A stretch of DNA of 64,000 nt from positions 350,634,932 to 350,698,931 of the forward strand of contig JARYHS010008074.1 in NCBI GenBank assembly GCA_031002005.1, read 5' to 3'. Position 1 is the first letter of the stretch. Each line of letters begins with the position of its first letter. Under the pieces are notes generated by a model. The model saw only the letters and a program-made list of their open reading frames with translations. It made no database searches and was not told the origin of the DNA. The DNA is from Vandiemenella viatica. Its lineage: Eukaryota; Arthropoda; Insecta; Orthoptera; Morabidae. Of the stretch, positions 2,341 through 59,238 are shown piece by piece. The position numbers and the translations under genes were made by a program.

Positions 2341-3545
2341 GTAATGCGAACAGCAAAAAAGGATATATATATATATATATAAATAGACCTGTGTTTCCCT
2401 ATACTTCACTTTTCAGCCACCACTACCTGGCACAGATCACTGGTGTTTGTGTGTGGAAGTAGCATGAAGTTTCCTATCATGCACCGAATGCCAATAGCTG
2501 TGGGGGTGTGGGAGATATGATGGTTAAAAGTGGTTGATGCAGGGTATTTTCATATTTCGACCAAGAACTTGTGTCTTCTTATACTTCTCTTTCCTTCCAG
2601 AACTACATAGGAAAGTCCATTGGTGTTTGTGTGTAGGAGTAGCATCAAATCTCTCATCGTGCATTATGGTGGTTAGATGTCGGTAGCTATAGAGGTGTGG
2701 GAGATATGGTGGTTGACCTGCAGCACTTTCATATTTCTACCAAAAGATGTATGTGTTGTGGTGTATCACTTTTCAGCCAAAACTATCTAGTGCAGATCAC
2801 TGGTGTTTGTGTGTGGTAGTAGCACAGAGTCACCCATTGATCACCAAATCTTGGTAACTGTAGGAGCGTGGGAGATATGGTGGTTCAAAGTGGCTGATCA
2901 AGGATATTTTCGTATTTGAGACATGTGTCTCCATATATGTCACATTGCTATCACAACAACATAGCATAGTTTGTGTGTGAGAATAGTATAATGTCTCCTA
3001 TAATGCACTATGGTGGTTAGATGTTGGTAGCTATGGAGGTGTGGGAGATATGGTGGTTGACCTGCAGCACTTTCATATTTCTACCAAAGACGTATGTGTC
3101 CCGGTGTATCACTTTTCATCCAAAAACTATCTAGCAGAGATCACTGGTGTTTGTGTCTGGTAGTAGCACAGAGTCACCCATCGATCACAACATTGGCCAA
3201 ATTTTGGTAACTGTGGGAGTATGGGAGATATGGTGGTTGAAATTGGCCGATCAAGGAAATTTTCGTATTTCGACCAAAGACATGTGTTTCTATATATGTC
3301 ACTTTGCTGCCACAACTATATAACATAAACCATTGGTGTTTGTGTGTGGTAGTAGTATCGTGTCTCCTATCATGCACTATGGAGGTTAGATGTTGGTAGC
3401 TATGGGGGTGTGGGAGATATGGTGGTTGAAAGTGGTCGATCTGCGCCACTTTCATGTTTCTAACAAAAACGTATGTGTCCTGGTGTATCACCTTTCAGCC
3501 AATACTATCTAGCGCAGATCACTGGTGTTTTTGTGTGGTAGTAGC

Positions 3546-3551
3546 TAGTGT

Positions 3552-3587
<36 letters not shown>

Positions 3588-4645
3588 CTGACTTAAAAAA
3601 AAAAGAAAAAAAACCTATGAAAAAGAACATTTTTTTCATAACTACTAAATCTCAAATTTTTAAGGCATTTATCGTTTAATATGACTGTTTTATAGTTTAT
3701 ACTACGTACTTATCTTAATTTTTAAATGTACTATAGTTTTATCTGGTTCAGTAGAAAAGAAAATTACGAAAATATTGGCAACATTGACTGAAGTTTGCTT
3801 TTACGAACGGGGACTTCCAAAGAGGTTAGGTTGGGCGAGAAGGAATCCTCATTCCCTGTTGTTTGGATTGATACTTGCTATTTGAACTAGTGCTGCCAAC
3901 CCTGCGAATGTATCTGTAGATCTAAGGATCTTTTCAAAAAATTAGGAATTTTAAATTTATCTACAGCTTTTTGCCTCTTTTTATTACTTATTGTGCTTTA
4001 CTTATATTCAAATACTTGTTATACTCTCAGCGTATTGTGATACTGAGTCATTAAATTGTCAGTAATTATGAATCATTTCCTTGCAACCATTGACGTAAAC
4101 CAATGATTTAAAAAGAAATAAAGCTCCTATTTTGTATGATAATAGATTTAAATTCAAACTTAAAAGATCTTAATACAGAATTATCGGCGCAGTCTTTATG
4201 CACAGTGTGTACTTTGCTCACAATTTAAAATTGCAATCTCAAAATCTTTTGTGTACAATACAAGGACAACCAGTAAAAGAAAATGTAATTATTCCTGAAT
4301 TTATGGATCTAGAGCAGACAGAAGAAGAAACAGAAAATTCCGACACTGACCGAACTAGTGTTGGTAGTGTTGATACTAGTGAATGTGGTACTGACATAGA
4401 GGATGAATAAAATTATGTTACCTATATAGATACATTTATGAATCATTATGTTAGACATTATATGATTAAGTAAGATTTAAAACAAGCATGTAAAATGAAG
4501 TTCCGTAAATAAAACTATAATTTATCAAATATACTGTTTTCTGAAGAAAAAAAATATATAAAAAAACAAAGGTGCTAGGTTTTTTTCCATGTTTTTTTTT
4601 CACATAGCTGAAAAAAAACTTTTTCGTTTTCAGCTTGCAACACTA
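3546..4645 (+). mobile_element. hAT-superfamily element, 1.1 kb, 8-bp TSD
   Basis: It interrupts the minisatellite between 3545 and 4646. Flanking 8-bp direct repeats GTAGTAGC (3538-3545 and 4646-4653) are identical. The ends are inverted: TAGTGTAGCA at the left, TGCAACACTA at the right (TIR TAGTGTTGCA, one mismatch). An 8-bp TSD plus a TAGTG terminus is typical of hAT. The left end is followed by ~37 A residues. An internal 'tagtgctgccaaccctgcg' at ~3889 resembles a second hAT terminus, suggesting nesting or an internally deleted element. It carries only the tail of a transposase. Confidence 0.8.
4198..4410 (+). pseudogene. hAT transposase C-terminal remnant (acidic tail)
   Basis: A 70-residue open frame lying inside the hAT element. 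It begins MHSVYFAHNLKLQSQNLL; 'V(F/Y)xxxNLKL' resembles the end of hAT dimerisation regions. It finishes with an acidic, Ser/Thr-rich tail (EQTEEETENSDTDRTS, then ...CGTDIEDE). The catalytic RNase-H fold and BED finger are absent. The Met is simply the first in frame; the true exon would have extended upstream. The assignment rests mainly on its location; sequence similarity alone would be weak. Confidence 0.4.
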
Positions 4646-4963
4646 GTAGTAGCACAGAATCACCCATCGATCACAATGTTGGCAGAATTTCGGTAGCTGT
4701 GGGGATGTAGGAGATACAGTGTTTGGAAATGGATGATCAAGGATATTTTCATATTTCGACCATAGACATCAGTGTCCCTATATTTCACTTTGTTTCCACA
4801 ACTACGTAGCGCAGACCTCTGGTGATGATTTGTGGTATTGACCTCAAGTCTCCCATCATGCACTTCAGTGGTTCGATGTCGGTAGCTATGGGGTCGTGGG
4901 AGATATGGTGAATGATAGCGGTCGACGTAGGACATTTTCCTGTTTCTATCAAAGACGTATGTC

Positions 4964-5215
4964 CAGGGGCGTAGCTACTATGGGGCTAGGCGGTGCAGTG
5001 CACCGGGGCCCCTACGCTCAGGGGGCCCCTAAGCCTTTTTTTTTTTTTTAGCTCTACAGCCATCTAAGAGCCCCCCTGAGACACAGGAAGTCCCTCACTA
5101 AGAGCCCTCTCACTGCTCAGGGGGGGGGGGCAACCATTGCTCAGGGGGCCTCTAATGACAACTCAAGGGCCCCATCCTCAGCTCAGGGGGCCCTTAGCAG
5201 TAACACAAAGCAGTA
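4964..5215 (+). mobile_element. GC-rich hAT-like MITE fragment (CAGGGGCGTAGC family)
   Basis: Starts CAGGGGCGTAGCTACTATGG, the same terminus as the element at 17564. The interior is very GC-rich against an AT-rich background, with repeated 'gctcagggggccc' blocks and a T13 tract. Termini of type CAGGGGCG are common in hAT elements. I do not find the matching right terminus or a TSD, so it is probably truncated. It lies inside the Helitron-like element, whose tail resumes at about 5221. Confidence 0.5.
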
Positions 5216-5310
5216 ACATCATGCAGTATGGTGGTCAAATGTCGGTAGCTGTCAATCAAAATTCTTTACAATCACGATCGATGTCGTGGGCATCAGCTAG
5301 ATTTGAATAA

Positions 5311-13145: not shown

Positions 13146-13257
13146 GAAAAATACCTGAAACATAAGTTTTATTTGTTGGCCTAGCTATAGAAGAAACCTC
13201 TGACTTCTATCCTGCAGAGCTTAAAAATGTAATAACATCAGTTAGAGAATAATCATA

Positions 13258-14140
13258 TCTATACACAAAAATAGATGTGTGTGTCCCTATATTTCACTTT
13301 TCAGCTACCACTACCAACCACAGATCACTGGTGTTTGTGTGTGGTAGTAGCATCAATTCTCCAATCGTGTACTATGGTAGTTGCGTTGCGGTAGCTACGG
13401 GGGAGTTGGCGACTTGGTGGTTGAAAGTGTTCAACCTGGGGCACTTTCATATTTCAACAAAAGACATGTGTGTCCTTATATTTCACTTTTCAGCTGAAAT
13501 TATCTAGCGCAGATAACTGATACTAGTAGCACAGAATCACTGATCATTCACAAAGTTGGCCCAATTTTGGTAGCTATCATGGTTTTGGAGATATTGTGCT
13601 TGAAAGTGGTTGATCAAGGATATTTTCTTATTTCGACCAAAGTCAAATGTGTTTGCATATTTCACGTTGCTGCCCTAACTATATAGCGCAAACCACTGGT
13701 GTTTGTGTGTGGCAGTAGCATCGAGTCTCCCATCGTGCACTATGGTGGTTAGATGTCGGTAGCTATGGGAATGTGGGAGATACGGTGATTGAAAGTGGTC
13801 GTCCTGGGGCACTTTCATATTTTGACCAAAGATGTGTGTGTCCCTATAGTTCACTTTTCAGCGAAAGCTAACTAGCGTTGATCACTGGTGTTTGCGTGTG
13901 GTAGTAGCACACCTTCACTGACTGTGCACAACGTTGGCTGAATGTAGGTAGCTGTGGGACTGTGGTTGTATTTGGTAGATGGAGGGAATTTTCATATTTT
14001 AACGGAAGACACCTGTGTCTCTATATTTCACTTTACAGCCATAAATACGCTGCACAGATCACTGATGCTTGTGTGTGGAATTAGCCTCGAGTCTCCCTTT
14101 GTGCACTATGGTGGTTGCATGTTGGTAAGAACTGTAAAAG
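13258..14140 (+). mobile_element. Second Helitron-like minisatellite element (3' truncated)
   Basis: Begins TCTATACACAAAAATAG at 13258, preceded by A; Helitrons insert between A and T and start with TC, so this is the best 5' end among the copies. The same ~180-bp units follow, with 'tggtgtttgt' near 13330 and 13700, and alternating unit types. It stops at about 14140 without the hairpin-CTAG tail. Open frames within it are repeat shadows. Confidence 0.55.
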
Positions 14141-32210: not shown

Positions 32211-33528
32211 TGAGATTTGTCCGGAAAATACGTATAAACGTTGAATAATGTCTTTATGTTACAGGTTGCAGTCACCGCCAGGTGGGACTACTGCTGTAAT
32301 CAATCCCATCATGCTCAGTTTGAGTCAGAGCACTCTGCGTGAAGGTGGGAGTGTGTGGCAGCTTGTTGACAGTTACCCTTTTTCACCTGCCGTCGGCATG
32401 GAGCTCTCTCTGATTGAGAAACAGCGCGTCAACATCAAGTTTCTTGCATAGCTAGGCAAGAATGGCCGTGAGATTTTTGAGTGTTTGAAACAGGTTTATG
32501 GAGACAATTCTCTGAAGGAACCAACCATGAACTAGTGGTTAAAAAGGTTCCGGGATGGCCGAGAAGAAGTGAACGATGACCCTCGCGCAGGACGCCCGTC
32601 GACATCAAGTTCCGATGCAAATGTTGAACCAATTCGGGCTTGTGTTCTTAAAGACCGTAGATTGACAGTCAGAATGATTGTTGACGAGCTGTCAATCCCC
32701 AAAACAATCGTTCACGAAATCCTGACACAAAAACTTGAAATGAAGAAATTGTGTGCGAAAATCATACCGAAGCTCTTGACGCCAGAACAGAAAGCAAAGA
32801 GGGTTGAGTGCTGTGAGGATTGGTTGGAAGCAGAGGAACGAGGGGACTTTCTCAACCGACTCATCACTGGAGACAAGTCCTGGTTTTACTAATTCGATGT
32901 GGAGCTCAAATCTCAAAGCAAGGAATGGAAACTAGCAGGAGAACCGAGAACAAATAAGTCGCGAAAATCAAGGTCCAATGTGAAGACAATGTTGATTGTT
33001 TTCTTTGATTCTAGGGGCATTGTTCACAAGGAATTTGTCCCTCCCAGCCAGAGAGTGAACGGAAATTTTTACGTTGAAATTCTGACATGGCTCGGAGCTC
33101 ATGTGGCCCGAGTTCGACCGGAGTTGGCAAAAGGGGTCAGGTGGATCCTTCATCACGACAATGCGCCCGCTCACATGTCACTCATTGTGCACGAGTTTTT
33201 GGCCCGAAGCTCAATCACCGTGACAGACCACCAGACTTATTCACCCGATTTAGCCTCGTGTGACTTCTTCATGTTCCCGAAATGCAAAATGGTGCTTCGG
33301 GGGCGGCACTTGGGAGATGTGGAAGCCATCACGGCGGAAACGAAACGGCAACTGAACAACATCACAACTGAAGACTTTCAGCAATGTTATCAACAGCGGA
33401 AACGGCATTGGTAGAAGTGTATCGCGTCTCAGGGCGAGTACTTTGAAGGAGACCATTTGGTAATACCTGAATAATTGTAAAATAAAGTTATTATTCAACT
33501 TTTATATGTATTTTCTGGACAAACCTGA
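32211..33528 (+). mobile_element. Full-length mariner, 1,318 bp, long TIRs, inserted in jockey ORF2
   Basis: The left end TGAGATTTGTCCGGAAAATA and the complement of the right end TCAGGTTTGTCCAGAAAATA match along ~39 bp (to 'gttgaataat'). TA lies outside both ends (32209-32210 and 33529-33530). The jockey endonuclease resumes immediately after, so this is a clean secondary insertion. Confidence 0.92.
32398..33474 (+). pseudogene. Mariner transposase: one continuous frame with four in-frame stops
   Basis: A single frame from MELSLIEKQRVNIKFLA to GEYFEGDHLVIPE gives ~358 codons, the normal family length, with no frameshift. Domains: first HTH (IFECLKQVYGDNSLKEP), linker (DDPRAGRPSTSSSDANVE), second HTH (TVRMIVDELSIPKTIVHEIL), then the catalytic core with all three Asp: ITGDKSWFY, ILHHDNAPAH and YSPDLASCDFF. 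By count 34 residues separate the second and third Asp (DD34D). Stops: TAG 32449-32451, TAG ~32533, TAA ~32890, TAG 33412-33414; each is one substitution from the likely sense codon (CAG/AAG/GAA). The conserved WxFDVELK and QKCI contexts support this. It is recently dead, or very slightly decayed. Confidence 0.92.
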
Positions 33529-37999: not shown

Positions 38000-38274
38000 T
38001 TGTATTTGATCCATGAAGTCATAATTTATGACATAGGACAAGTCATCAGTAATTACAGTAAGCATTACACTATAAGTTTTTCACACAATTCAGGACTATA
38101 TATTATTACTATAACTATCATAATTAAAACTGCACAGTCAATACAAGCAACATATGAAATACATCTGTTCAACTGAAGTAAAATGAATATTTCGATGTTT
38201 TACAAGTTACAATGCGAAATAATTCAATCTTGTTTGTTCATGTCTCGATGGTTCATATATTCATCTGCGCTATG

Positions 38275-39258
38275 TAGTTCAGGCAGGAAAGTAAAATTTA
38301 CGGAGACACATGTCTTTGGTCGAAATACGAAAATATCCTTGATCGGTCACTTTCAACCACCATATCTCCCACACTCCCTCAGTTACTGAAATTCGGCCAA
38401 TGTTGTGATCGAAAAGTGAATCTGTGTTACTACCACACACAAACGCCAGTGATCTGCGATAGATAGATTTCACTGAAAAGTGATACAAGACACATGCGTC
38501 TTTGGCAGAAATATGAAATTGCCACAGGTCGACCCTTTCAACCCCCATACCTTCCACACCCCCATAGCTACTGACATCTAACAACCATAGTGCATGAAAG
38601 GAGACATGATACTACTACCACACATAAACACCAATGGTCTATGCTATGTAGTTGTGGCAGAAAAGTGACACATGCAGGGACACATGTCTTTCGTCGAAAT
38701 ACGAAAATATCCTTGATCAGCCAATTTCAACCACCATATCTCCCACACTCCCACAGTTACTGAAATTCGGCCAATGTTGTGATCAAAAGGTAACTCTGTG
38801 TTACTACCACACACAAACGCCAGTGATCTGAGATTTTTCGCTGAAGAGTGATACACCAAGCCACATGCGTCTTTGGCAGAAATATGGAATTGCCGCAGGT
38901 CGACCACTTTCAATCCCCATATCTCCCACACCCCTATAGCTACCAACATCTAACAACCAAAGTGCATGACAGGAGACATGATTCTACTGCCACACACAAA
39001 CACCAATGCTCTATGCGATGTAGTTGTGGCAGGAAAGAGAAGTATAAGGAGACACAAATTTTTGGTAGAAATATGAAAACGCCCTGCATGACCATCTTTA
39101 ATCATCATATCTCCCACATCCCCACATATATCGGCATTCAGCCAACGTTGTGGATGACAGGAAACTCCATGCTACTTCCACACACAAACACAAGTGATAT
39201 GTGCTAGGTAGTGGAGGCTGAAAAGTGAAATATAGGAAAACACACGTCTATGTTGATA
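38275..39258 (-). mobile_element. Helitron-like minisatellite element, reverse orientation
   Basis: The reverse complement begins near 39258 with 'atagacgtgtgttttcctat', 'ttcacttttcagcctccac', the same 5' start as 2378 and 51174. It runs through ~180-bp units with the two alternating types. The 3' (low-coordinate) end lacks the hairpin-CTAG tail, stopping near 38275. Open frames are repeat shadows. The unit 38700-38840 closely matches 38320-38460, so some dimers are recent duplicates. Confidence 0.6.
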
Positions 39259-39269
39259 TATATATTTAA

Positions 39270-46295: not shown

Positions 46296-47471
46296 CACAG
46301 TCCAGTCACATAATGTGACCACCACCTACTTTCGACGTCAACGTGAAATAACCAATCACAGAAGGCAGTTGACAGCACATTACAGTGGAGTGTATATAAA
46401 GAATGTCCTAGGGCATCTGAAAGCATTTCAATCATTGGCGTAATGCAGAAACATAGCGATTTATCCGACGACCAAAAGGGCATGATTATTGACTTTGGGG
46501 CCAAGGGTGGAAACATTTCGGAAATGGCTAATTTTGTGAACTGTTCACGTGCCGCCATGGTGAAAGTATACCGTGCATGGCAAAAGGGCACTATTCAAAA
46601 TCAGCGGCGTGGAACATGTGGTGCACCACAGGCTATAGATGACAGAGGCGAACGAAGGCTACGGAGATGCGTTTGGGCAAATAGACGTGCAATTGTTGAG
46701 CAACTGACCACCCAGATGAACCAAGGGGCTACCAAGAGTGTATCCTCAACAACGGTTCAGCGAACGTTGCTGCGCATGGGCCTCCGCAGCAGATGCCTGG
46801 TTAATGCACCTATGCTGACTGCTGTTCATCGGCGACGAAGGCTGGAATTTGCACGCTAGTACCGCAACTGGACATCCACAGAGTGGCGACAGATGGACGT
46901 TGGCACATACAGCGTGAAACGTCTGAAAGCAAACACCATGCAACAATTGCTGGAAGGATCCAGGGTGGAGGAGGAAGCATTATTGTTTGGGGAATGTTTT
47001 CCTGGCATTCACTGGGTGAACTCATCATTGTGGAAGGCATGATGGAGCAGCACAAGTACGTATCTGTCCTTGCGGACCATGTCCACCCCTACATGCGAAT
47101 AATTTTTCCTCAGAATGATGGCATCTACCAGCAGGACATTGTGAGGTGTCATACAGCTCGCAGTGTATGTGCGTGGTTCGAAGAGCACCAGGATGAGTTT
47201 ACCTTGCTCCCCTGGCCAGCAAACTCACCGGATTTAAACCCATTCAAGAATCTGTGGGACTACCTCGATCAGGTTGTTCGCGCCATGGGTCCTCAACCAC
47301 GTAATCTAGCGCAGCTAGCCATGGCATTGGAGTCGGCATGGCTCAACATCACAGTCAACACCTTCAGAAACCTAATTGACTCTCTTCCTGCACGTCTCGC
47401 AGCAGTCCGCTCTGCCAAAGGTGGTTATTCTGGTTTTTGAGAGGTGGTCACATTAATGTGACTGGACTGTG
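46296..47471 (+). mobile_element. Tc1-like transposon, 1,176 bp, TA-flanked
   Basis: Left terminus CACAGTCCAGTCACATAATG; complement of right CACAGTCCAGTCACATTAAT. TA flanks are at 46294-46295 and 47472-47473. ~28-bp TIRs ending '...tgtgaccacc' with one inserted base on the right. A transposase gene fills the interior. Confidence 0.92.
46443..47440 (+). pseudogene. Tc1-like transposase, defective
   Basis: N-terminal frame MQKHSDLSDDQKGMIIDFGA with two HTH regions (ISEMANFVNCSRAAMVKVYR; SSTTVQRTLLRMGLRSRCLV) and the GRPR-like RRGTCGAPQA. It stops at 46857; the next frame (46883) picks up TSESKHHATIAGRIQGGGGS with IIVWGMFSW, then GIYQQDIVRCHTARSVCAWF (second catalytic Asp) and SPDLNPFKNLWDYL. 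Relatives have SPDLNPIENLW, so the catalytic Glu is replaced by Lys. The 'WSDESRF' block with the first Asp is deleted at the frame junction (~46885). By my count 36 residues lie between D2 and the E position. The C-terminus (LPARLAAVRSAKGGYSGF) is intact. Confidence 0.9.
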
Positions 47472-47474
47472 TAG

Positions 47475-48660
47475 TATCACAATATCCAGTAAACACGCTA
47501 AAAGACAAAATATAGTTTTGACCAAAAACATTTGAATAAGAAGAATGAGGTAAATCATGAAATAATTAATTCAGCGCCAAAATGCAAGTCTGCTATATTT
47601 TCTTAAAATAATTCTTATTTTTTTTCTATGTTTACCATAGAATTAACTGTAAATAGTTTTAATATTATTTTGAGATTATAAGGTACTGCTGAAATAATTA
47701 AGTAATGTATTTGTTCCGTATATATAAGCTGAGTGTTAACATAGATGATATTATTTTGCTCCTCAATGTACATTTTGGAGACAGATATGAGGAAATTCCT
47801 AGAGACATTTAGATAAATCCTGAAATCATAATCAATAAATGATAATACATTGGCTTCAGAACTGTTTTAAATTACTTGTCATCTTTACTATGCTGCTGCC
47901 CAATAAACTCAGTAAAATACCCAAGTCAAGGAAATGTCTGTGAAAAAAGAAAGTTAAGAATGATTTATGAATGGAAGGTGAAAATTTTCAGGAACATAAA
48001 AGCTGCAGGCAAATATTATTTGTGGAAGATCAATTAATCTAACAGGCTTGTAAATTTATTATGGACGTTCATTAAATATTATTCTCTTATGTTTTTAAAA
48101 ACCAAACAGCAAAGATTATCTCTGTTACATACAACACAAGTAGGTAATTGGTCAGGATTAATTTATAGTCTACACTTTTTCTGCCCTCTTCACCATTCTG
48201 CAGAAACAATAAAATCATAGCAATTACCATAAAAATACATAATTCAAAGTGAATGAAAGGAATTATTAAGGTTTTCTCGACATTAATATCAGTTTTGATT
48301 TGTTGTAAAATAAGTTTGCAATGTCTTTGCCTTTTTTAGTTATTTTCATGTGTCTAAACAGCTTTCATTTAACTGTATCAAACTAAAAAATAATTTTAAA
48401 AATATTAACAGTCTTTTATTAGTCTGGATTGAAATAAATGTATTCTTAACAAATATTTAGTAAAATTTCTACGTTAAACTAAAATAAAATATTTTAAACA
48501 TACAGTCTCCCTCGACATCTTTACTAGTAATATCAAGAACAATACTCTCTGCAGCAGGAATACTTTCAGGTTCAACAATCACCATGAATACGTTTTAAAA
48601 ACAGTGAGACCAAAGATAACTTAATAGATAAAGTCATCAAGTAAAAAATTATAATAACAG
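47475..48660. other. AT-rich intergenic sequence
   Basis: No ORF with a recognised motif, no TIRs, no tandem repeat seen. One of the longest element-free stretches in the window. Confidence 0.55.
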
Positions 48661-48850
48661 ATATTATAAAAGTAAGTGTACAATGTGCGTGCCGCTAAAA
48701 TTCAGATACGATTATATTGTCTCTGCAGATACGAGTCCTGGTACCATCAAGGGAATTATAAGGTGTGGTAGCCCTCTATCCCTTATCCACGACGAAGCTT
48801 CTTACCTGAAGGACGTGCTTTCGAAGATAGGCTGGACGTTTCGCCCACTA

Positions 48851-49010
48851 GAAATTTCTAAAACAGTCCAGAAATTTCGAGAGTACCGGTATTCGAGAGC
48901 ATGCCACAACATTCCAGAATGTTCTGGGATGTTCGGGAACTACCCATTGGTGGGGGTATATAAAGCAAGATCCGTTGCGGGTTCGAACGTCACTTTCTGA
49001 TCAGTAACGA
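48851..49010 (+). promoter_or_regulatory. Heat-shock-type promoter: HSE arrays, inverted CCAAT, TATA box
   Basis: The proximal HSE has six 5-bp units with exact spacing: TTC 48912, GAA 48917, TTC 48922, GGA 48927, TTC 48932, GAA 48937 (one base off in unit four). A distal cluster has GAA 48851/TTC 48856 and GAA 48871/TTC 48876/GAG 48881. ATTGG (inverted CCAAT) lies at 48945-48949 and TATATAAA at 48957-48964. Possible initiators are TCACTT (48990) and TCAGTA (49001). The transcribed side is purine/A-rich ('caaacaaacaaacaaaaa'), as in hsp70 leaders. HSF trimers bind alternating nGAAn units. No heat-shock protein ORF follows in the window, so the owner is unknown; it could be a captured host promoter or an element's own promoter. 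Confidence 0.75.
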
Positions 49011-49349
49011 AGGGAAGAACCAAAAAAGAAGTGAAAATTCCAAAGTAGTGCAGTGACTGAATAAAACAAACAGTGAAGAAGGTTCCCGTTTTTAGCTGAA
49101 GGGCGTGCTGTTCAGGATGTAAGGGCTCAACAGTGAAGTGTGATTAGTCAAAGTGATCAGTGACTGAATATAAATCGAAAATAAAGTGTGTAAAGTGTAC
49201 TTAGTAAATTTTTTTAATAAAAAGTTGATTTGATTTATACTTATACAATGTGAAAACTTAAAAGAGACAAAGATCTTGCAAGTTCTAAAGCAAAACGGCA
49301 AAACAAACAAACAAACAAAAAAAAAAACCGAAATAATCGAAGAAAGAGA

Positions 49350-49481
49350 ATGGGCACCGTGAGAAGCAGAGAAACCGAAGAACAACGAAATGAACGAATT
49401 AAAGAATCAAGAATTGTGACACAATATTATACTAAACGACTGCGAACGCAAGCCACCCATGAAAATATCACCCTACGATAA
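49350..49481 (+). CDS. Small ORF downstream of the heat-shock promoter, unknown product
   Basis: 43 residues: MGTVRSRETEEQRNERIKES, RIVTQYYTKRLRTQATHENI and TLR, then TAA. It is Arg/Glu-rich; 'RETEEQRNERIKESR' resembles the repeated 'RxxETxEQRxxRLxxxR' found near the start of many Helitron Rep-helicase proteins, but it is short and the similarity is from memory. It starts ~350 bp downstream of the TATA box and is the first ATG I would pick with a coding look. Several possible GT donor sites occur upstream (for example caggatgtaag near 49115), so it could be part of a spliced product. Confidence 0.3.
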   Translation: MGTVRSRETEEQRNERIKESRIVTQYYTKRLRTQATHENITLR

Positions 49482-49484
49482 GCG

Positions 49485-50170
49485 CGGACTTGGACAAGTA
49501 AACAGTAAAACCCTAACAAATGAAACATTCCACTAGGACCCGACAGGGTTGACACCTCAAAGCATTTTTTACCCCTAAAGCTTAAGTAAAAAAAAACCTA
49601 AAATCACCAAAATTAAGGGTTAAACCCTTAAAAAATAAATACTATATTTTGCTTAGTAATTTTAGTTATTTATAAATTATGCAATATTTCGAACATTATT
49701 TCGTTTTGTTCTGATGAAACAGAGTTTTTGAGATCATACATACATTAAACAAACTTAATATTTTTGTAAGAGGATTGAATGTTATGCAACATCCGCCATT
49801 TCGTCGCAATGTGAATCGGACCATTATCACACAGTTGTAGCGTTTCAACACATTACCTAATTACGCAACTTATTTTTAACAATATTATAGATAGAAAAGA
49901 CGCGGTCGAAATTGGAACCGTGATTAATACTAGGCCAAGCTCTGAAATGTTTTCAAAACGTTAAAGCCAGCTGCGTCACAATCATATGAATAAAAATCAG
50001 CTGAGGTGGATGTATTTCATCTAGGGTTGTCAACTTTTCAGATTTCCACGACCGGACAGACGGATATTTGCGAACGGCGTGAGGGAGGATGGTATCTTAA
50101 AAAAGTAAAATTTATAGGGCAATTTTTTTCAAATAATTCCCATTTTCATTTAATGTGTATTTACCTTTAT
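49485..50170. other. No recognised feature
   Basis: AT-rich, with an A-rich patch at 49585-49640. Nothing recognisable. Confidence 0.45.
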
Positions 50171-50174
50171 TCCC

Positions 50175-50387
50175 CATTACCTCTAGCGTTAGGGGGGGGG
50201 GGGTAAGCGGGTCAAAAGTACCCGGGCCCGATGGCTGATGGGGGCCCCGATCACTAACTGTAGGGGCCCTCAGGCCATGCAGCCAAGGATCAGCCCATTG
50301 TCGCCCGGCCAATTTGTAGACCTAAAAAAAAAAGGTCGCCCATTTTACCCCGGGCCCGAAGTTCCTAGCGCCGGCCCTGTACGCGAG
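50175..50387. mobile_element. GC-rich hAT-like MITE in an RTE-like LINE
   Basis: The complement of the right end is CAGGGCCGGCGCTAGGAACT, a typical hAT-MITE terminus, ending at 50387. The interior is GC-rich (cccgggcccgatggctgatg) with a G-run at ~50190. It directly follows (on the minus strand) the LINE residues ...DFNARV, so it cuts the endonuclease. The left terminus is unclear and I find no convincing 8-bp TSD for 'tacgcgag'. Confidence 0.5.
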
Positions 50388-50817
50388 CATTAAAATCGCG
50401 AGCCAGTATTAGGAAATCGTTTTTATTAAGTTTGTCTTCACCACTTGATGCTGTTCATAAAATAGTTCAGATTCTTCTCGTTTATTTTCTTCTGGGGGCA
50501 TATATGACGATCGAGGTTAGGTTGCCTCTCTCTACTTTCAATCATAGAGTCAGTATCCTTTCACTTATTATAGTGTAACTGACAATTTTATTTTTCCATT
50601 TCTTATCCACTAATATTGCCACTCCTGCTGCAACGCTTTTCTCTACTGCCACTCCACTGTAGATCATTGTATATTTATCTATTATTTCTGTTCCCTTCAA
50701 TTTTTTTTTTTTTGCTTCTGTAATTACAGCAACATTGATCCCCTCTCTAGTTAACTCCCTGTCCAGATCATATTCTTTATTATTTATGCCTCTTACATTC
50801 CACGTTCCTATTTTCAA
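50388..50817 (-). pseudogene. RTE-like LINE endonuclease, N-terminal half
   Basis: The minus-strand frame from the Met at 50817 reads MKIGTWNVRGINNKEYDLDR (GTWNVRG start motif), INVAVITEAKKKKLKGTEII (xxExK block), DKYTMIYSGVAVEKSVAAGV and AILVDKKWK. After a stop, VERGNLTSIVIYAP... and then ILARDFNARV, the GDFNARV block with Gly replaced by Arg. It breaks at the MITE. This is the apurinic-type endonuclease that nicks target DNA. 5' of the Met lies a GC-richer segment. Confidence 0.8.
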
Positions 50818-51172
50818 ATTATCTTTGATTCCAAATCGTTTGACCTTGCCTTTGTTGTCCTCATAAGATCCATCTGGCTTTCCTTACTTTGAATTTTATG
50901 AATAATATATATTTTTATGTGGAAGGGTTACCAGCCCTTCTCACAGTCCCCATCCTGGAGGATCAGGGTTTTCCTTCCCTTAGCCAGAGTGCCCCAGTTT
51001 TAAGGCCCGTTAGCTACACTCGAAAGAGTGCATTGCCCAGGGGGCACTCGGCTTTTCCCTTTGTGGACGTGGGAGTAGGGTTTTCTAGCAGAGCTGCCAA
51101 GATATATCGCAGAGGCATTTCTCAGCACATCCGGCATAAGCTCAGATCCTTGAGATCATACCAGCCTTGACC
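50818..51172 (-). other. Probable 5' UTR / upstream region of the RTE-like LINE
   Basis: GC-richer than its surroundings, with 'ggttaccagcccttctcaca', 'catcctggaggatcagggt' and '...gggggcactcggcttttcc'. I remember related text upstream of endonuclease starts in other insect LINEs but cannot confirm here. The 93-residue plus-strand frame (50889-51170) looks like a shadow. Confidence 0.35.
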
Positions 51173-51173
51173 C

Positions 51174-52264
51174 TCATATATAATAGACATGTGTTTTCCT
51201 ATATTTCACTTTTCAGCCACCACTTCCTAGCAGAGATCACTGTTGTTTGTGGTAGTAGAATGGAGTTTCCTATCTTGCACAACGTTGGCCGAATTTTGGC
51301 AGCTGTGGGGGTTTGGGAGATATGGTGATTGAAAGTGGCCGATCTAGGATATCCTAGATCGGCCACTTTCAATCACCTATTTCAACCAAAGACATGTTTG
51401 TCCCTGCATTTCACTTTGTTGCCACTGGTGTTTGTGTGTGGTAGTAGCATCATATCTACCATTATGCACTATGGTGGTTATATGGCGGTATCTATGGGGG
51501 TGTGGGAGATATGGTGGTTGAAAGTGTTCGACCTGGGGTACTTTCAAATTTCATGTCCCTATGTATCACTTTTCAACCAAAACTATATAGCACAAATCAC
51601 TGGTGTTTTTGTGTGGTAGTAGCATAGAGTCACCGAACGCGCACAAAGTTGGCCGAATGTCGATAGCTGTAGGAGTGTGGGAGACATGATGTTTGAATGT
51701 GATCTTTCAGGCACATTTTCTTATTTCGACCAAAGAATTGTGTGTCCGTATATGTTACTTTGCTGCCTCAACTACATAGTGGTGATTATGTGTGGTAGTG
51801 ACTTCGAGTATCCTATCATACACTATGGTGGTTAGATGTCGATAGCTTTGGGGGTGTGGGAGATTTAGTGGTTGCAAGTGGTTGACGTAGGCATTTTCCG
51901 ATTTCTACCAAAAACGAGTGGGTCCCTCTATTTCACATTGCATCCAGAACTATTAAGCGCAGACCACAGGTGGTAGTAGCCTGGAGTCTTCCATCGTGCA
52001 CTATGGTAATTGCATGTCGGTAGCTGCGGGGATGTGGTAGATATGGTGGTTGAAATTGGTCGTCGGAGGGAAATTTCATATTTCGACCAAAGACATGTGG
52101 GTCCCTATACTTCACTTTGCAGCTATAAATACCCTGCGCAGATAACTGATTTTTTTGTATGTTATTAGCCTCGAGCCTCCTATCGTGCACATTTGTGGTA
52201 ACATCTCGGTAGATGTCAATCAAAATTCTTTACAATCACGAACGTAGTTATGGACATCAGCTAG
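51174..52264 (+). mobile_element. Helitron-like minisatellite element with intact 3' tail
   Basis: Starts TCATATATAATAGACATGTG (compare 13258) and ends 'gtcaatcaaaattctttacaa...catcagCTAG' at 52264, followed by T, as expected for Helitron insertion into AT. The 3' hairpin is weaker here (cacgaacgtagttatg). It contains ~180-bp units of both types and a 54-bp perfect palindrome (51324-51377). The base before the start is C, not A, so the 5' boundary may be off. Confidence 0.6.
51324..51377. repeat. 54-bp perfect palindrome
   Basis: ggtgattgaaagtggccgat ctaggat is followed at once by its exact reverse complement (atcctag atcggccactttcaatcacc), 27 bp per arm, no spacer, no mismatch. It duplicates, inverted, a phrase of the surrounding unit; the unit then resumes with 'tatttcaaccaaag'. 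Confidence 0.97.
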
Positions 52265-52309
52265 TAATATGATAAAAAATAATAATTAATAAAAATCTCT
52301 ACATCACAG

Positions 52310-52745
52310 AAAGACTCACACTAAACTCTAAGAGGGACATCGAGAACATCCAGAAAGAAGAATCAGCAGGAAAATTATTGGACCAAAGAGTCCCGCTCAA
52401 ACATAGCCAATGACATCAGAAAACGCAAACTAAAGTTCTATGGTCACATCTACAGGATGTCAGATTACAGATTAATCAAGCAGATATTCGATCTCATGTA
52501 ACCATTCAAAATGCCTAACCGCTGGTTCGATCAAGTAAGACAAAACCTGTAAAAAGCAAATATCAAGAGATCAGAAATCCTAGATCACAAAATCTTCAGA
52601 CAAAAAATACACAACTGGGTAGTCATGAATACCGGCGCAACTTGGACAGAAAAGAGAAAACTTGCTTAGAGTAAACGAATGTGAGAATACTGGAGTGGAA
52701 AAAGAAACTCAGACAGAAAATGATTAAATTTTACGTGATCTTAAT
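52310..52745 (+). pseudogene. LINE ORF2 C-terminal end
   Basis: The frame RSNIANDIRKRKLKFYGHIY then RMSDYRLIKQIFDL is the 'xxxIxxRRLxxxGHxxRM' block after the RT thumb. The end WTEKRKLA, stop, SKRMREYWSGKRN matches 'xxRKxxHSERMRxYWxxKK'. Two stops. It follows directly on the Helitron-like CTAG end. Confidence 0.65.
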
Positions 52746-53049
52746 AGGTCTATTCGCATAAAATAAATAAATTAATTAATAACAAATAATTTAGAGCATA
52801 TTAAAAATGTGGCAGAAATTTTAAATTTATTTGTATTCAGATGAAACCAAAGGTGACGGGCATCAAGTAAAGATAAAATATAAAAAGAGACGGAAACTGC
52901 CACTAACCACAATTGACAGACTGTTGGATAGCATCAACGCACATACAAGATGTTTATTAGTGCTATACGCTCATCAGCAAACCTCTTCGCTAATTAATGT
53001 TATAGCCTACCCTAAAGCAGATAGTCTATGTTTAGTGACCGGTAGATAT

Positions 53050-53275
53050 CAATAGCATTAGGGGAGGACGGCGGTTCGAATCCCCGTCCGGGCTTCCAGA
53101 TTTGGGTTTTCCATGGTTTCCCGAATCACTCCAGGCAAATGCCGGGATGCTTCCTTCAAAAGGCCATGGCCGAATTCCTTCCCATTCCTTGCCCCCATCC
53201 TTGCCCCCCATCCTTTCCCGTCTCTAAAAGACCTCGATGTTAAAAGAGACGTAAAGCAGTTAAAAAAACAAAAAA
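53050..53275 (+). mobile_element. tRNA-derived SINE (copy 2)
   Basis: B box GGTTCGAATCCCCGTCC, then 'gggttttccatggtttcccg', 'aatcactccaggcaaatgcc', 'gggatgcttccttc', 'ggccatggccgaattccttc', 'cctttcccgtctctaaaaga' and an A-rich tail (ttaaaaaaacaaaaaacaaa). More intact than copy 1 at 26015. The A-box side is truncated. Confidence 0.85.
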
Positions 53276-53289
53276 CAAAAGCATTAGTA

Positions 53290-53850
53290 AAAATTAAGTT
53301 AGCACTAGTAGTAATTGATTTGCATTTTAGTGAACGTAATAGTAGTTTAGATTGTAGAACTTTAAGAATGGATGTATTTGTTGAATGATCTTTTTATTGG
53401 AATGAGCGATGGCTAAGATTTGTAAAAGCAGGTGTCCATTTAATAGTTTACAGAAAGCATCCATTATCACAAATGGAATCCACTAGTTTTTATGCACATC
53501 TAAGTTCGATGAGCAATTTTGTTTTGTAAATAGTGGTTTAATTCAGGAATAGATTGCAGAACATATGATTTGCTTCTTATTATTAGCTGTCTAATCCCAA
53601 ATATACATTTAAAATGAAGGGTGGAAGTAAACTTTAGTATACGATGAGTAAGAAATTGTTTAAAATTACAAATATGAAATTTTGAGTAATGAGGACAGAC
53701 GACTATTGTAATAACACAACATGTTTGCAGTTTACTTATATAATATCTCCGTGGACAATTCTGTGTGCAGTGAGGGTGCTTAAAACAAAATGTTTTGTAA
53801 GAAAGAGAAAGAAGCCCTCAGTTTAGCTCGCTTGAATGTGTCTGAATAGC
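53290..53850. other. No recognised feature
   Basis: AT-rich. A 91-residue frame crossing the SINE tail has no motif. Confidence 0.45.
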
Positions 53851-53854
53851 GTTG

Positions 53855-54986
53855 AGGGAGAGTCCATAAACTATTTGGCTCCATTTCGGCCTCCCGTGAA
53901 CACCTCTGCCTCCTACATAGGCTGAAATGACTTTCACCTCGACTCCCCTCATTCCCCTCCGCCCCGTGTATTGTATATACCTTTTTACCTTATTAAATCC
54001 AGACTATCTATAAAATTAAAAAATTATTGCGTATATAATGAATACAACTGATATTTGCGTTAAGCCTGAATACTTTTCCATAATTCCAATATTCTGAATG
54101 AAATGTTTACATTAGGCACTCCCGCAAATAATCAGTTATTTGAAAAAAAAAAAAAAAAAAACTCTTTCTCAGGTATGTTCAGAGATCATTTTCTTCTTCA
54201 GATGTTACTGAGAACATTCTCCTTTTTTCATTCACCATTTTGCATTAATTGATAAAATAGAGCACTAAAAAAAGTTAAGAACTGCATGTTTTGTTTTATT
54301 TTGTTTCAGTTCTGCGACCTTTTTCTATATTCCAAGGGAATGATTCTTTGATCTGCTTAAAATATTTCTACAGCTCACTAGATAACGAAAACTCTTTGAA
54401 AAAACATTTTAAATAAGCCTCGCAAAGCTTATTGTACAATGCACACACTTTGAAATAACATTTCAGCGAGCACTATAATAGAAGTTGCACTGAAATTCAC
54501 TTGACAGAATAAAATTAAAATTATTTTAGTATGGAGTGGTGAAATTAGACGGGACAATCCTAATAGAAACAGCATTATTTCAAACCATGAAAACAACAGA
54601 ACTGTCACTGCCTTCGAAAATCCGGGACTACTTCTCTTAGTCTAGGTACGGCATGTCTAATGTTTCTCAAATGCACCGTCGCGTGTCGGTTAGTCCAAAT
54701 GCGCCAGCCACGTGCAACCCAGTGTTATTAGTTGAAGTCATATGCATACATAGCACTTTCAGTATGCAGGATATATAAATTACATACGGAGATAATTAAA
54801 TGACAGAAATAAATATACACATGCTGTTGTGCGTTCTGTACCTTATATTAACTGCAACAAATAATATGAATTAAAAGCTCAATGGCTTGCCTCGGACCTG
54901 CCCCCCTCCTCCCCACGAAGCCCAGCATAGCTTTCTACCCAACTCCCATCCCCTAGATGGAGCCAAATAGTTTATGAACGCTCCCT
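53855..54986. mobile_element. TIR element (GAGCGTCCATAAACTAC family), 1.1 kb
   Basis: AGGGAGAGTCCATAAACTAT at the left; complement of the right AGGGAGCGTTCATAAACTAT, matching on to 'ttggctccat' (~29 bp, two or three differences). It shares subterminal pyrimidine-rich tracts and 'taaattacatacggagataa', 'cacatgctgttgtgcgttct' with 35949-36318, but has ~750 bp of extra interior (54010-54760) with no recognised coding. Confidence 0.7.
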
Positions 54987-54989
54987 ATA

Positions 54990-56130
54990 CCTGGAAACCT
55001 GTCACTGATTGTCCATTTGCAGATAGAACATAAAAGGTTCTGAAAGTGCTCCGTTGCCAGGCCGACAAGGAGGCATCAAGCAGGGATTTTTCGTCTAAAC
55101 CTGGTACAAGAGGACAGTTTTCGGAATTACTTCATGCAAGGGCTTGAAAGACATGACGTGCAAGATACGTGGCCGTGCTCCATACTATTGGTAATCTAAT
55201 ATACCAAGTGCAGATTGCAAAGGAGAAGTACTTTCTAGGAAGATCGTCCATAAGAATCAAACTTTACAAGTAGCCAATGTTGTACGGAATTTCTTGACGG
55301 GAGACAGTGAGGATTCTCACCGCCAGCGTAAACCAATCAGAATCCTCACCACTGCGTATCATCGCCCGCACAAATCGTAATAACAACAAACTTAATCCTG
55401 ATCAAACGATATGCATATTTTGGCACTAATGAACATCTTTGCCTATTCAATAGAGCGTGAGTTGAAGAAACTTTAAAAACTCATAGCCAGGGAGCATTAA
55501 GTCTTTATTAAATTATTATTTTGCACCCAGGAATTTGAATATGTAATTTACTTTTTTATTTGTTATTCTTTCTTTCTTTGAATTGCAAAGATAAAGTTTT
55601 TTATGTAAGTCTAAAATATATTTAAGGTAACATTCAGAATATTAAATATTTTGTTTTTAATTACAAAACCATCCAAATACAATTCAAATGATAATAATTA
55701 ATTACAAAAGGGTCATTTCAATGTCACATATAACACAGATACATTTCTTTCATTTTATCCTATAATTTAACTACTATAAAAGCACAGAATAAAGCCCATA
55801 ACTTGTTAACCATGTTTCAATAATGTATTCCATTTCATGCCTCCCTTACACATAAGTGAAAAATTTCCCACTCCTTAAGCCTGAAATCAAAATTTTGCTT
55901 ATATTTGCAGTCATCTCTTCCTTTCATGTTGTACTTATTATTGTTCTTCCGATATGCATGTGAACATCATCGCAAATTTATGCCTTATATGCTACAAGCC
56001 TCATTAAGTATTTAATGGCTGTTAGCCTTACTTGCGATACAGCAATTCTTTTACAAAAGTTTCCATTGTTAATAAATAAACTCTTCTCGGGCTTTTAATC
56101 ATTGACATTTGGTTGAAAATGAGGGCTGTT
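54990..56130. other. No recognised element; one weak coding-like run
   Basis: Between 55030 and 55300 a frame reads VLKVLRCQADKEASSRDFSS, KPGTRGQFSELLHARA and YVAVLHTIGNLIYQVQIAKE with stops. I cannot place it. The rest is AT-rich. Confidence 0.3.
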
Positions 56131-56134
56131 ATGG

Positions 56135-56341
56135 ATGCCTTCGAAACGTCCCACAAGTGTGACATTTTTACGCGGCTGTAAGCACGAGAAGTGTTTATTT
56201 ACATACAACGCCGAGAAAAACTTACATCAGTTTCCATTGTTGTGTGTAACAGAATTTTCAATTAATTATTGGACTAATAACATGAATTATAATAGTTCAA
56301 GTAAAACACTAATTATGTCACGTGTTAAAAATGTTCATTAA
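56135..56341 (+). pseudogene. Possible THAP-like zinc-finger start
   Basis: 68-residue open frame: MPSKRPTSVTFLRGCKHEKC, LFTYNAEKNLHQFPLLCVTE, FSINYWTNNM. A short Met-Pro start, a GCxxxxC and '...FHxFPxD...W' spacing recall THAP domains (as in P-like transposases), but the N-terminal CxxC is missing. Weak; could be chance. Confidence 0.2.
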
Positions 56342-57429
56342 AAAATTGAAAAGGATACAATATATATACCTATAGATTATCTAATATTATAATAAGCAAC
56401 TGTGTCAGCTATGACGTGGTATGTCACTGCATGACGTCACTTTATGACATCGGACAATGATATCACGTTTACGCCATTATTATTGGTAAAGCGCGTTATT
56501 TAATAACATTTCCAAGCATAAATTAACTGACAGAACACTAAATAAAAGTCTGTATTGCATTAAAATTGACACATCACTCATTAGATGCTTATATTTACAT
56601 AATAATTTTTTATATATAGAAGTATTCCTTAAATTCTTTGTCCATAGATATGTAAGATAAAAGCTTTGTATTTCGAGCATCAAGGTAGCGAAAGTTTTGA
56701 TTAGATTGTTACTAAGCATGGATCAGAATTACAACTGACATTTGGCGTTACGGCATAGGGCTAGGGATTGCAATCCAGCAAAGCGGGATCCCGCATCATT
56801 AGACAGTCTGGCGGATCCCGCACAAAATTAAGCGGATCCGCAAAATCCGGCAGATACGCGTGTCAGTCTGCTTGACTCGCTGCCCTACTCGATCTCTATC
56901 CGATGCTTTGCGCTGTTTGCCTGTACCCTTCCAGTTGGCATTTGACTCATGTGAACAAGCGTTTGTTTTTGTCAACCTTCGTCATTCGTAAGTAAATAAA
57001 TACACTTTCACGTATTCATAAAAACTTACGTTTGTTTCGAGTACACATTTCTGTAATTTGAGTTATGTTGCGTATTTAGTACGATTTTCTAACTATATAA
57101 TTATTTTTTAAGAGTCGCACACGTTATCTGAACTACACGGTTACAGCTTTTTATTCACAGTTTCATTATTCCCATTTTCTGTATTTGCAGATAAAGTAAT
57201 TTTGACAATTTCCTTATTTGCGGCTGAAAATTTCATTATTCGTTGATATGAAACTAATGTTATCGTAATTTAACGATCACATACCTATTTATTTAACAGT
57301 TATCAAAAGGAAATTGTATATCTTTTGACATTGTTGTTTTGGCCACTGCATCAATGCGTTTCTTTGACGAAAGCCACCTGCTTACATGTGCCGCTCAGGT
57401 TTTCGATTAATCCCTCTTTTCCTTGCTAA

Positions 57430-58900
57430 CCGACTTCACAAAAGGAGGAGGTTCTCAATTCGTCTGACTTTTTTTTTTTTTTTATGTATCTTCAGCGATA
57501 TCTTCGCCAATTTTGAACCGATTTAAATTAAATTTTTATGGTGGATAGAGTATACCGCGAAAGTGGTCCCATATGAATTTCATTGAGAAAACACCCCTTC
57601 TACCCCTTTACACCCCTTAACTTTTTTACAAACCCACACTTTTTATCCGATTTTGATGGAACTTTGGAAATGTATAGTAAAAATTAAGCAAAAAAATATT
57701 GTCAACTTTTGATTTGAAAAAACCGAACCCCTCTCCCCCTAACCACCCCTTAATTTTTGACAATGTTCTTTATACAAAGCTAAAGTCGACACCATTTAAC
57801 TGATCTCCATTAAAGTTGGCATATAGCCTACATGTAATTTTTCATGGAAAAGGTTTCTGACCCAAAAAAATATAAAAAAAACCCTCTCTCCCTTTACACC
57901 CCTTAATTTTTATACAAACCCACATTTTTTATCCGATTTCAATGGAACTATCGACATGTATAGTCAAAAATAAAGAGAAAAATGCTGTCAACATTAGGTT
58001 TGAAAAAACTGAACCCCTCTCAATCTATCCACCTCTTAATTTTTGCTAATGTTATTTATACAAAACTGTAGTCGACATCATTTAACTGATCTTCATTAAA
58101 GTTGACAGTGTAATATTTCATGGACTAGGTTTCTGACCAAAAAATAAAAAAAGCCACCCCATCTCCCCCTCTACACCCTTTAATTTCATAGAAACCTATA
58201 TTTCATATCTGATTTTGATTGAACTTTGTCAATGTAATGGTCTGCCAACGCTCAACCCCTCTCCCTCCTACCAACCCCTTAATTTTTGTCAATTTTTTTT
58301 TTAATATATAAAAAGCTACAGTCGCCACCGTTTGACCTATTACCATCAAAATTGACGCTTATATGTATTTTTTCCACGAGGAAAGTTTCTGACAAAAAAA
58401 TCAAAAAACCACCCCCACTCCCCATTAAACCGTTTAATTTTTATACAAACCCACAGTTTTTATCCAGTTTAGATAGAACTTAGCAAACTTTTACTGTAAA
58501 TCAAAGAGAAAAATAATGTCAGCTTTTGGTTTGCAAAAACTGAACCCTTTTCCCCGTTACCTCCCCTCGACTTTTGTCAATTTTCTTTTTGAAAAGCTAC
58601 AGTTGATACCATTTGACCGATCTGTATGAAAGTTGGGACATATATGTATTTTTTTTATGGAGAAGATTTCTGACCCAAAAATAGAAAAAACCTACCCTAG
58701 CTCCCCTTTTACATCCTTTAATGTTTGTACAAACCCACATTTTATTCCGATTTCGGTGGAACTTCGCATGTGTATACTTTAAAGCAAATAGAAAAAGAAA
58801 CATACTACTAGCATTACATTGACAAAAACACAAACCCTATTCCCCTTTCTTCCCCTTTAATTACTGTCAATGTTCATTATATAAAGTTACCGTTTCTATC
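57430..58900 (+). repeat. Tandem array, ~285-bp unit, about five copies, inside the hAT element
   Basis: 'acaaacccacactttttatc' and variants recur near 57628, 57917, 58190, 58446 and 58731, each followed by 'cgattttgatggaacttt', then 'aaaagagaaaaat..tgtcaa', 'aacccctctccccct', 'ccttaatttttgtcaatgtt' and 'tacagtcgacaccatttaac'. The spacing varies between ~255 and ~290 bp. Copies are diverged. The (T)n at 59241-59297 lies just downstream. Confidence 0.85.
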
Positions 58901-59238
58901 TGATTTTGAAGGAAGTATGCACATTGCAGAATATATATAAAATGTATGTGTCCTAATGTCTCAACATGTCCTTCATATTTCTACCTGGACCCCGAGCTTT
59001 TATGTTGTGAGAACCAATTAAATATCTGTATTTTCTGTTTGATGCCAGAACGAACAGATGTATTCCAGAGACAGATTTGTGTTTGTGGTATGTATTAATG
59101 TCCAGATGTTACATGTTTCGACTATCGAGCAGCAGCTTAAACAGATGTTATGTTTAAATCGAAACACAGCCTGGATCAGAATGTAAACTAACATTCCTTA
59201 ACACAGCATCCAATTGACTACATTGTAGTTGTAACGAT

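Follow-up and report, generated by a model that had tools for sequence, protein, structure and literature searches.

What is a near-perfect heat-shock element (HSE), complete with a TATA box, doing in transposon-rich DNA in which no heat-shock gene follows it? The question is raised by a short segment of the window, that is, of the whole 64-kb stretch of DNA analysed here (36% GC). The initial annotation had proposed either a captured hsp promoter or the promoter of a heat-inducible mobile element. We conclude, with a probability of roughly 85%, that positions 48658-49545 are the 5′ part of an old Helitron copy belonging to a repeated family and equipped with an HSF-driven promoter. Judged by its sequence, the Helitron identity of the element is well shown; heat induction of the promoter is predicted from its layout and from precedents in other organisms.

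Layout of the promoter segment

The features of the segment are the following.

48851..48883, + strand: distal HSE cluster (GAA TTC AAA GTC GAA TTC GAG in 5-bp steps; first six units 16/18)
48892..48939, + strand: proximal HSE array (ten units sharing a register, of which the final six, 48912-48939, are near perfect, 17/18)
48946..48950, + strand: inverted CCAAT (ATTGG, in 15 of 21 aligned copies)
48957..48964, + strand: TATA box TATATAAA (from the sequence; seen with other copies)
48990..48996, + strand: probable initiator TCACTTT (TCACTTT or TCAATTT in 16 of 21 aligned copies)
48992..49349, + strand: presumed leader (A-rich before the ATG, with 58% A in 49241-49349)
48658..49545, + strand: 5′ part of a decayed Helitron copy, 3′ part missing (from homology to other copies)
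49350..49545, + strand: broken start of a Helitron transposase (RepHel) frame (stops and a frameshift)

The last six units of the proximal array read TTC/GAA/TTC/GGA/TTC/GAA and begin at 48912, 48917, 48922, 48927, 48932 and 48937. The exact 5-bp steps described for these units were confirmed, and their 17 matching core bases out of 18 were reached in none of 200 simulated windows (first-order Markov, six-unit score), the highest simulated value being 15. Four weaker units in the same register, with 2-3 of 3 bases each, occupy 48892-48909 and bring the array to ten units. A second cluster, said to lie upstream, was indeed found there; its register differs from that of the proximal array, and the score of its first six units is above all 200 simulations. 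The inverted CCAAT and the TATA box proved equally real, the first base of TATATAAA being 18 bp past the last HSE base. Transcription would start near 48992. A short stretch, CTGAAGGACGTGCT / CTGAAGGGCGTGCT, is present both upstream of the HSE (48799-48819) and in the leader (49089-49109), and the piece in the leader has a further match in the upstream region of other copies.

The statement that no hsp reading frame follows stands as well: the three forward frames of 49000-59001 gave no match to any Pfam family at E values up to 0.1. So does the transposon-rich setting, since the window holds Tc1, mariner and LINE remains, which suggest that the animal is probably an arthropod. Decayed Tc1-/mariner-type transposase frames and a LINE-endonuclease-like frame, the latter recognised by eye, lie at 46347-47440, 32893-33414 and 50545-50883 (- strand). 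Searches against Rfam and for tRNAs gave no match. A 122-aa open frame at 48632-48997 was considered as a Penelope-type fragment and dropped when Pfam, a viral-contig scan and a protein search all came back empty. Two minimal upstream frames of the leader, each a start codon followed directly by a stop (ATG-TAA at 49117 and ATG-TGA at 49248), were rejected as regulatory candidates; they seem private to the window copy, ATGTAA occurring in 1 of 21 aligned copies and ATGTGA in 1 of the 18 shown. CpG content is near 1 over 48650-50440, against 0-0.6 to the left and 0.3-0.5 to the right. It was not used as evidence, because the stretch covers several unrelated elements and the value of 48700-49550 is common, being reached by 7.7% of 850-bp windows.

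Genomic copies and their ends

A strong promoter layout with no hsp frame nearby could belong to an ordinary single-copy heat-shock gene, or to a heat-shock RNA gene of the hsr-omega kind, with the gene body located elsewhere. We regard this as extremely improbable, for it is already contradicted by the many copies with Helitron ends and by the Helitron-type frame that follows the leader. The copies came from a search of the window's own genome (3.72 Gb) with positions 48651-49560 (910 bp). Forty of 788 first-look candidates were scored; they gave 82 matched pieces with identities of 67 to 92%, located at 39 places in addition to the window. The promoter segment is thus repetitive in its genome. 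Many of the copies break at the HSE edge, because the stretch from the distal HSE part to the TATA box is longer in them than in the window. Thirty-five copies besides the window were analysed, 20 with their flanks and 15 more as promoter pieces; the set leaves aside the near-duplicates L018 and L019 and two places matched only outside the HSE part.

This genome-wide search had been suggested as a check, and its outcome separates the two readings first proposed. Since copies are many and 33 of the 35 carry the HSE array, the reading as a mobile-element promoter holds; capture of an hsp promoter at a single locus does not, the segment being multi-copy. Two of the copies, L030 and L035, have leaders that are 96.5% alike, an insert of more than 1 kb between HSE and TATA box, and a near-identical left flank. 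Because leader, insert and left flank are nearly shared, the two probably represent a duplicated segment. Three sequences of the assembly (G000 C7, C4537 and C7729) are of near equal length, at 388,957,648, 388,957,591 and 388,957,675 bp, as would result from splitting long chromosomes at a set length.

The window is homologous to the other copies between about 48652 and 49545. The flanks of the other copies diverge left of TCAATATATATTATAAAAG, of which the window has the degenerate form CAGATATTATAAAAG; by eye, divergence begins directly left of TCAATATATATTATAAAAGTAAGTG. The 5′ end was located in 18 of 20 copies, with A as the preceding base in 17 of the 18 and TC in 14, a count to be read knowing that the search pattern itself began with TC; the 5′ end of the window copy is degenerate. 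The 3′ end, near CTCCCTGAGCGAAGCCGGGTACCCCAGCTAG, was located in 14 of the 20 with a pattern that ended in CTAG: seven show exact CTAG and the rest variants of it, and the base that follows is T in 11 of the 14. The truncated window copy lacks this end. From end to end, ten copies measure 1639 to 1919 bp and the other four 2076 to 3065 bp, and between most copies homology fades by about 1.3-1.5 kb after the TATA box. By their sequence, these are ends of the Helitron type, with insertion between A and T. In the one copy that was folded (L022), no strong hairpin precedes the 3′ end (-2.5 kcal/mol for 60 nt).

The real ends of the element came only from these other copies. Around the promoter, LTR- and TIR-type ends were sought and discarded: 14 TG..CA pairs with 5-6-bp repeats and some imperfect inverted pairs appeared to be at chance level by eye. 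A scan of 47500-53000 for Helitron 3′ ends returned one candidate on the + strand at 50958 and two on the - strand near 46600-46760, none of them at the element's end.

The frame behind the leader

The ATG at 49350 is kept in 15 of 21 aligned copies. Used as a query, the 75-aa frame that it opens found one protein, P0001 (106 aa, E 1.2e-8), to which 36 of 44 residues are identical from the Met on; weaker translated homology continues to 49545, interrupted by stops and a frameshift. The C-terminal GKMDNICQFCNAKKFSGETPGFCCMNGRKRN of P0001 can be aligned to the zinc knuckle of Helraiser, a Helitron transposase from a bat (pair E 3e-4), and shuffled controls aligned as well in 3 of 2000 cases for the whole protein and in 1 of 2000 for its last 62 residues. 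P0001 gave no Pfam or NCBIfam family at E values up to 10, and its best PDB match was no better than E 1.3.

Frames in other copies cover further parts of the transposase. That of L028 (328 aa) matches Helraiser residues 51-282 (PDB 7lcc; E 4.4e-14), and that of L039 (163 aa) matches residues 1223-1359 (E 3.6e-7) and contains a Pif1 2B domain according to Pfam (5.8e-11). The L027 frame (181 aa) matches residues 163-231 and, weakly, 1412-1441 (E 1.9e-8 in all); since the match covers both regions, an internal deletion has joined the front of the protein to its helicase end. In all, the N-terminal charged repeats, the zinc knuckle, the domain that follows it and helicase parts can be aligned with Helraiser, whereas the frames found here are broken or internally deleted. 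Neither the Rep (HUH) domain nor Helitron_like_N was matched by Pfam in seven frames and three read-through frames of L027, itself internally deleted, and no complete transposase was seen among the copies examined. These alignments identify the frame opening at 49350 as the N-terminus, now broken, of a Helitron transposase. No transposase can come from the window copy, which could at most give a heat-inducible transcript extending into its 3′ flank.

The motif ETEEQR was rejected as diagnostic of the frame, as it also occurs in the phage-like viral contig L010. Positions 935-1669 of L010 encode a protein of repeated ETxEERxxRL units that resembles the charged N-terminus of Helitron proteins, a likeness due to chance or convergence. 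Viral contigs scanned for relatives of the frame, P0001, the HSE core and the 180-bp repeat described below yielded none.

Conservation, age and origin of the heat-shock arrays

From the 5′ end to the transposase frame the family has one layout: a contiguous HSE array, an inverted CCAAT, a TATA box and an A-rich leader. In 33 of the 35 other copies the array is comparable to or longer than that of the window, with six-unit scores of 15-18 out of 18 and contiguous chains of 4-14 units. The two failures, L028 and L056, lack the 5′ part; for L030 and L035 the score is that of the displaced 5′ part, which the insert separates from the TATA box. The count becomes 33 of 37 if the two places without the HSE part of the match are taken as misses, and the set is biased toward HSE keepers because the query itself contained the HSE. 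Perfect GAA-TTC pairs average 8.4 per copy, against 0.4 in flank pieces. Of 259 flank pieces, each 400 nt long, only 3 score at least 15, and these three may stem from that displaced part in L030 and L035. By a single fixed rule, 17 of the first 20 copies and the window itself exceed in six-unit score all 100 dinucleotide shuffles of each copy's own promoter segment. By longest chain, 13 of the 17 do so, the exceptions being L023, L024, L026 and L029. The three that fail the fixed rule are L030 and L035, with 11- and 9-unit chains in their displaced 5′ parts, and L028, without a 5′ part.

Such regularity might simply reflect a short tandem repeat carried by the Helitron and unused by HSF. By eye, the arrays consist of a unit of about 10 bp such as CCAGAACATT, varying in length between copies, and core and spacer bases differ little in conservation. 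Agreement with the majority is 0.959 for core bases and 0.926 for spacers in the 29 of 36 sequences that have the proximal array (Mann-Whitney p 0.02, with sites that are not independent). The difference is small, therefore giving no clear sign of selection after insertion. A mere repeat nevertheless fits poorly with the position of the array before the TATA box and transposase start in nearly all copies examined, with the alternation of its units, which is the one HSF requires, and with the heat response of HSE-bearing Helitrons elsewhere, as described in two reports (PMC6765114, PMC13286980). On balance we find it improbable.

Nor does the family's promoter have to be of Helitron origin. An ancestral element could have captured a host hsp promoter and multiplied it, in which case the heat response would have been inherited from the host gene. 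The succession of HSE array, TATA box and A-rich leader is like that of an insect hsp promoter, and one study describes uptake of gene fragments by Helitrons (PMC6544945). A parallel is offered by the alpha-gamma element of Drosophila (87C), where an Hsp70 promoter fragment drives transposon sequence to give a heat-induced, chimeric non-coding RNA (PMC1794594). There the fragment sits in a local nest, whereas the present promoter is that of a transposon family with dispersed copies. We consider such an ancestral capture unlikely, though worth keeping in mind.

The Helitron copies examined are old. In the leader region the K2P distance from the majority is 0.097 for the window and 0.064 to 0.145 for 20 others, and mean pairwise identity is 85% with a star-like pattern, which fits an old burst. 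A site diverged by 10% would be expected to keep about 16 of the 18 core bases of a perfect array, so that the near-perfect HSE of the window would need no present-day selection. Under the preferred reading, an HSF-driven Helitron promoter, HSF trimers would bind the array cooperatively upon heat and so start transcription at about 48992. Complete relatives, whose existence we infer, would make a Rep/helicase transposase from such a transcript, and this transposase would also move the internally deleted copies of about 1.6-1.9 kb in trans. Because nearly all examined copies carry the same heat-shock switch, heat may have driven the spread of the family.

The nearest precedents are Helitrons themselves. 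Helitron1_CE and other Caenorhabditis Helitrons carry several HSEs that are bound by HSF-1 in heat, and the transposase RNA of Helitron1_CE rises with heat through HSF-1 (PMC6765114; PMC6927752). The family described here shares with it the possession of several HSEs, a likeness drawn from the description in those sources. It differs in residing in another animal with a 3.72-Gb genome, in that HSF use is here a prediction, and in having contiguous arrays of up to 14 units before the TATA box and transposase start. In wheat, the Feng8 / Xuan-Feng Helitrons have nTTCnnGAAn in the promoter of the transposase-bearing copy, and that promoter is reported to be heat-responsive (PMC13286980). Feng8 is an active plant Helitron with a predicted HSE, whereas the copies studied here are old. 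Thus, family and host are new, and HSE-bearing Helitrons were already known in Caenorhabditis and wheat, the comparison being one of descriptions. DIRS-1 of Dictyostelium is a retrotransposon and to our knowledge unrelated to Helitrons. It is similar in having a heat-shock promoter in the transposon ends, going by a title cited in PMC2685390. Full-text literature searches, of a kind that misses most subscription papers, brought up the Caenorhabditis and wheat cases; the titles and abstract openings listed included no heat-shock Helitron from an insect or other arthropod, and the term heat shock does not occur in the main text of a paper on an insect Helitron family (PMC6544945).

Should heat induction be borne out, nematodes, wheat and a further animal would all have HSF-driven Helitrons, suggesting that a single transposon superfamily has acquired this stress switch more than once. 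Two questions could then be put to the test: do bursts of Helitron copying come after heat stress, and has a large supply of ready-made HSF sites rewired the heat-shock response of a large animal genome?

A Helitron 3′-end-like sequence ending in CTAG and followed by ATCATTGTGG or a near variant occurs inside 10 of 36 promoters (L026, L027, L029, L031, L032, L033, L036, L037, L043 and L046); in L032, L036 and L037 it comes after a first HSE cluster. This looks like a mini-Helitron, or a second 3′ end, nested inside the promoter. From these internal ends one may imagine a mini-Helitron of a few hundred bp (5′ end, HSE array, 3′ end) that scatters heat-shock promoters and rewires the heat response, the arrays being a mobile, length-variable HSF switch gained repeatedly by Helitrons in nematodes, in wheat and here. 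We offer this as a speculation that is rather doubtful at present.

Elsewhere in the window, arrays of a repeat of about 180 bp occupy 2366-5300, 13253-14127, 38263-39268 (- strand) and 51176-52264. Two of them share the end ...CATCAGCTAG, at 5300 and 52264, and since this end looks like a Helitron-type 3′ end, these satellite-like arrays may be carried by another non-autonomous element.
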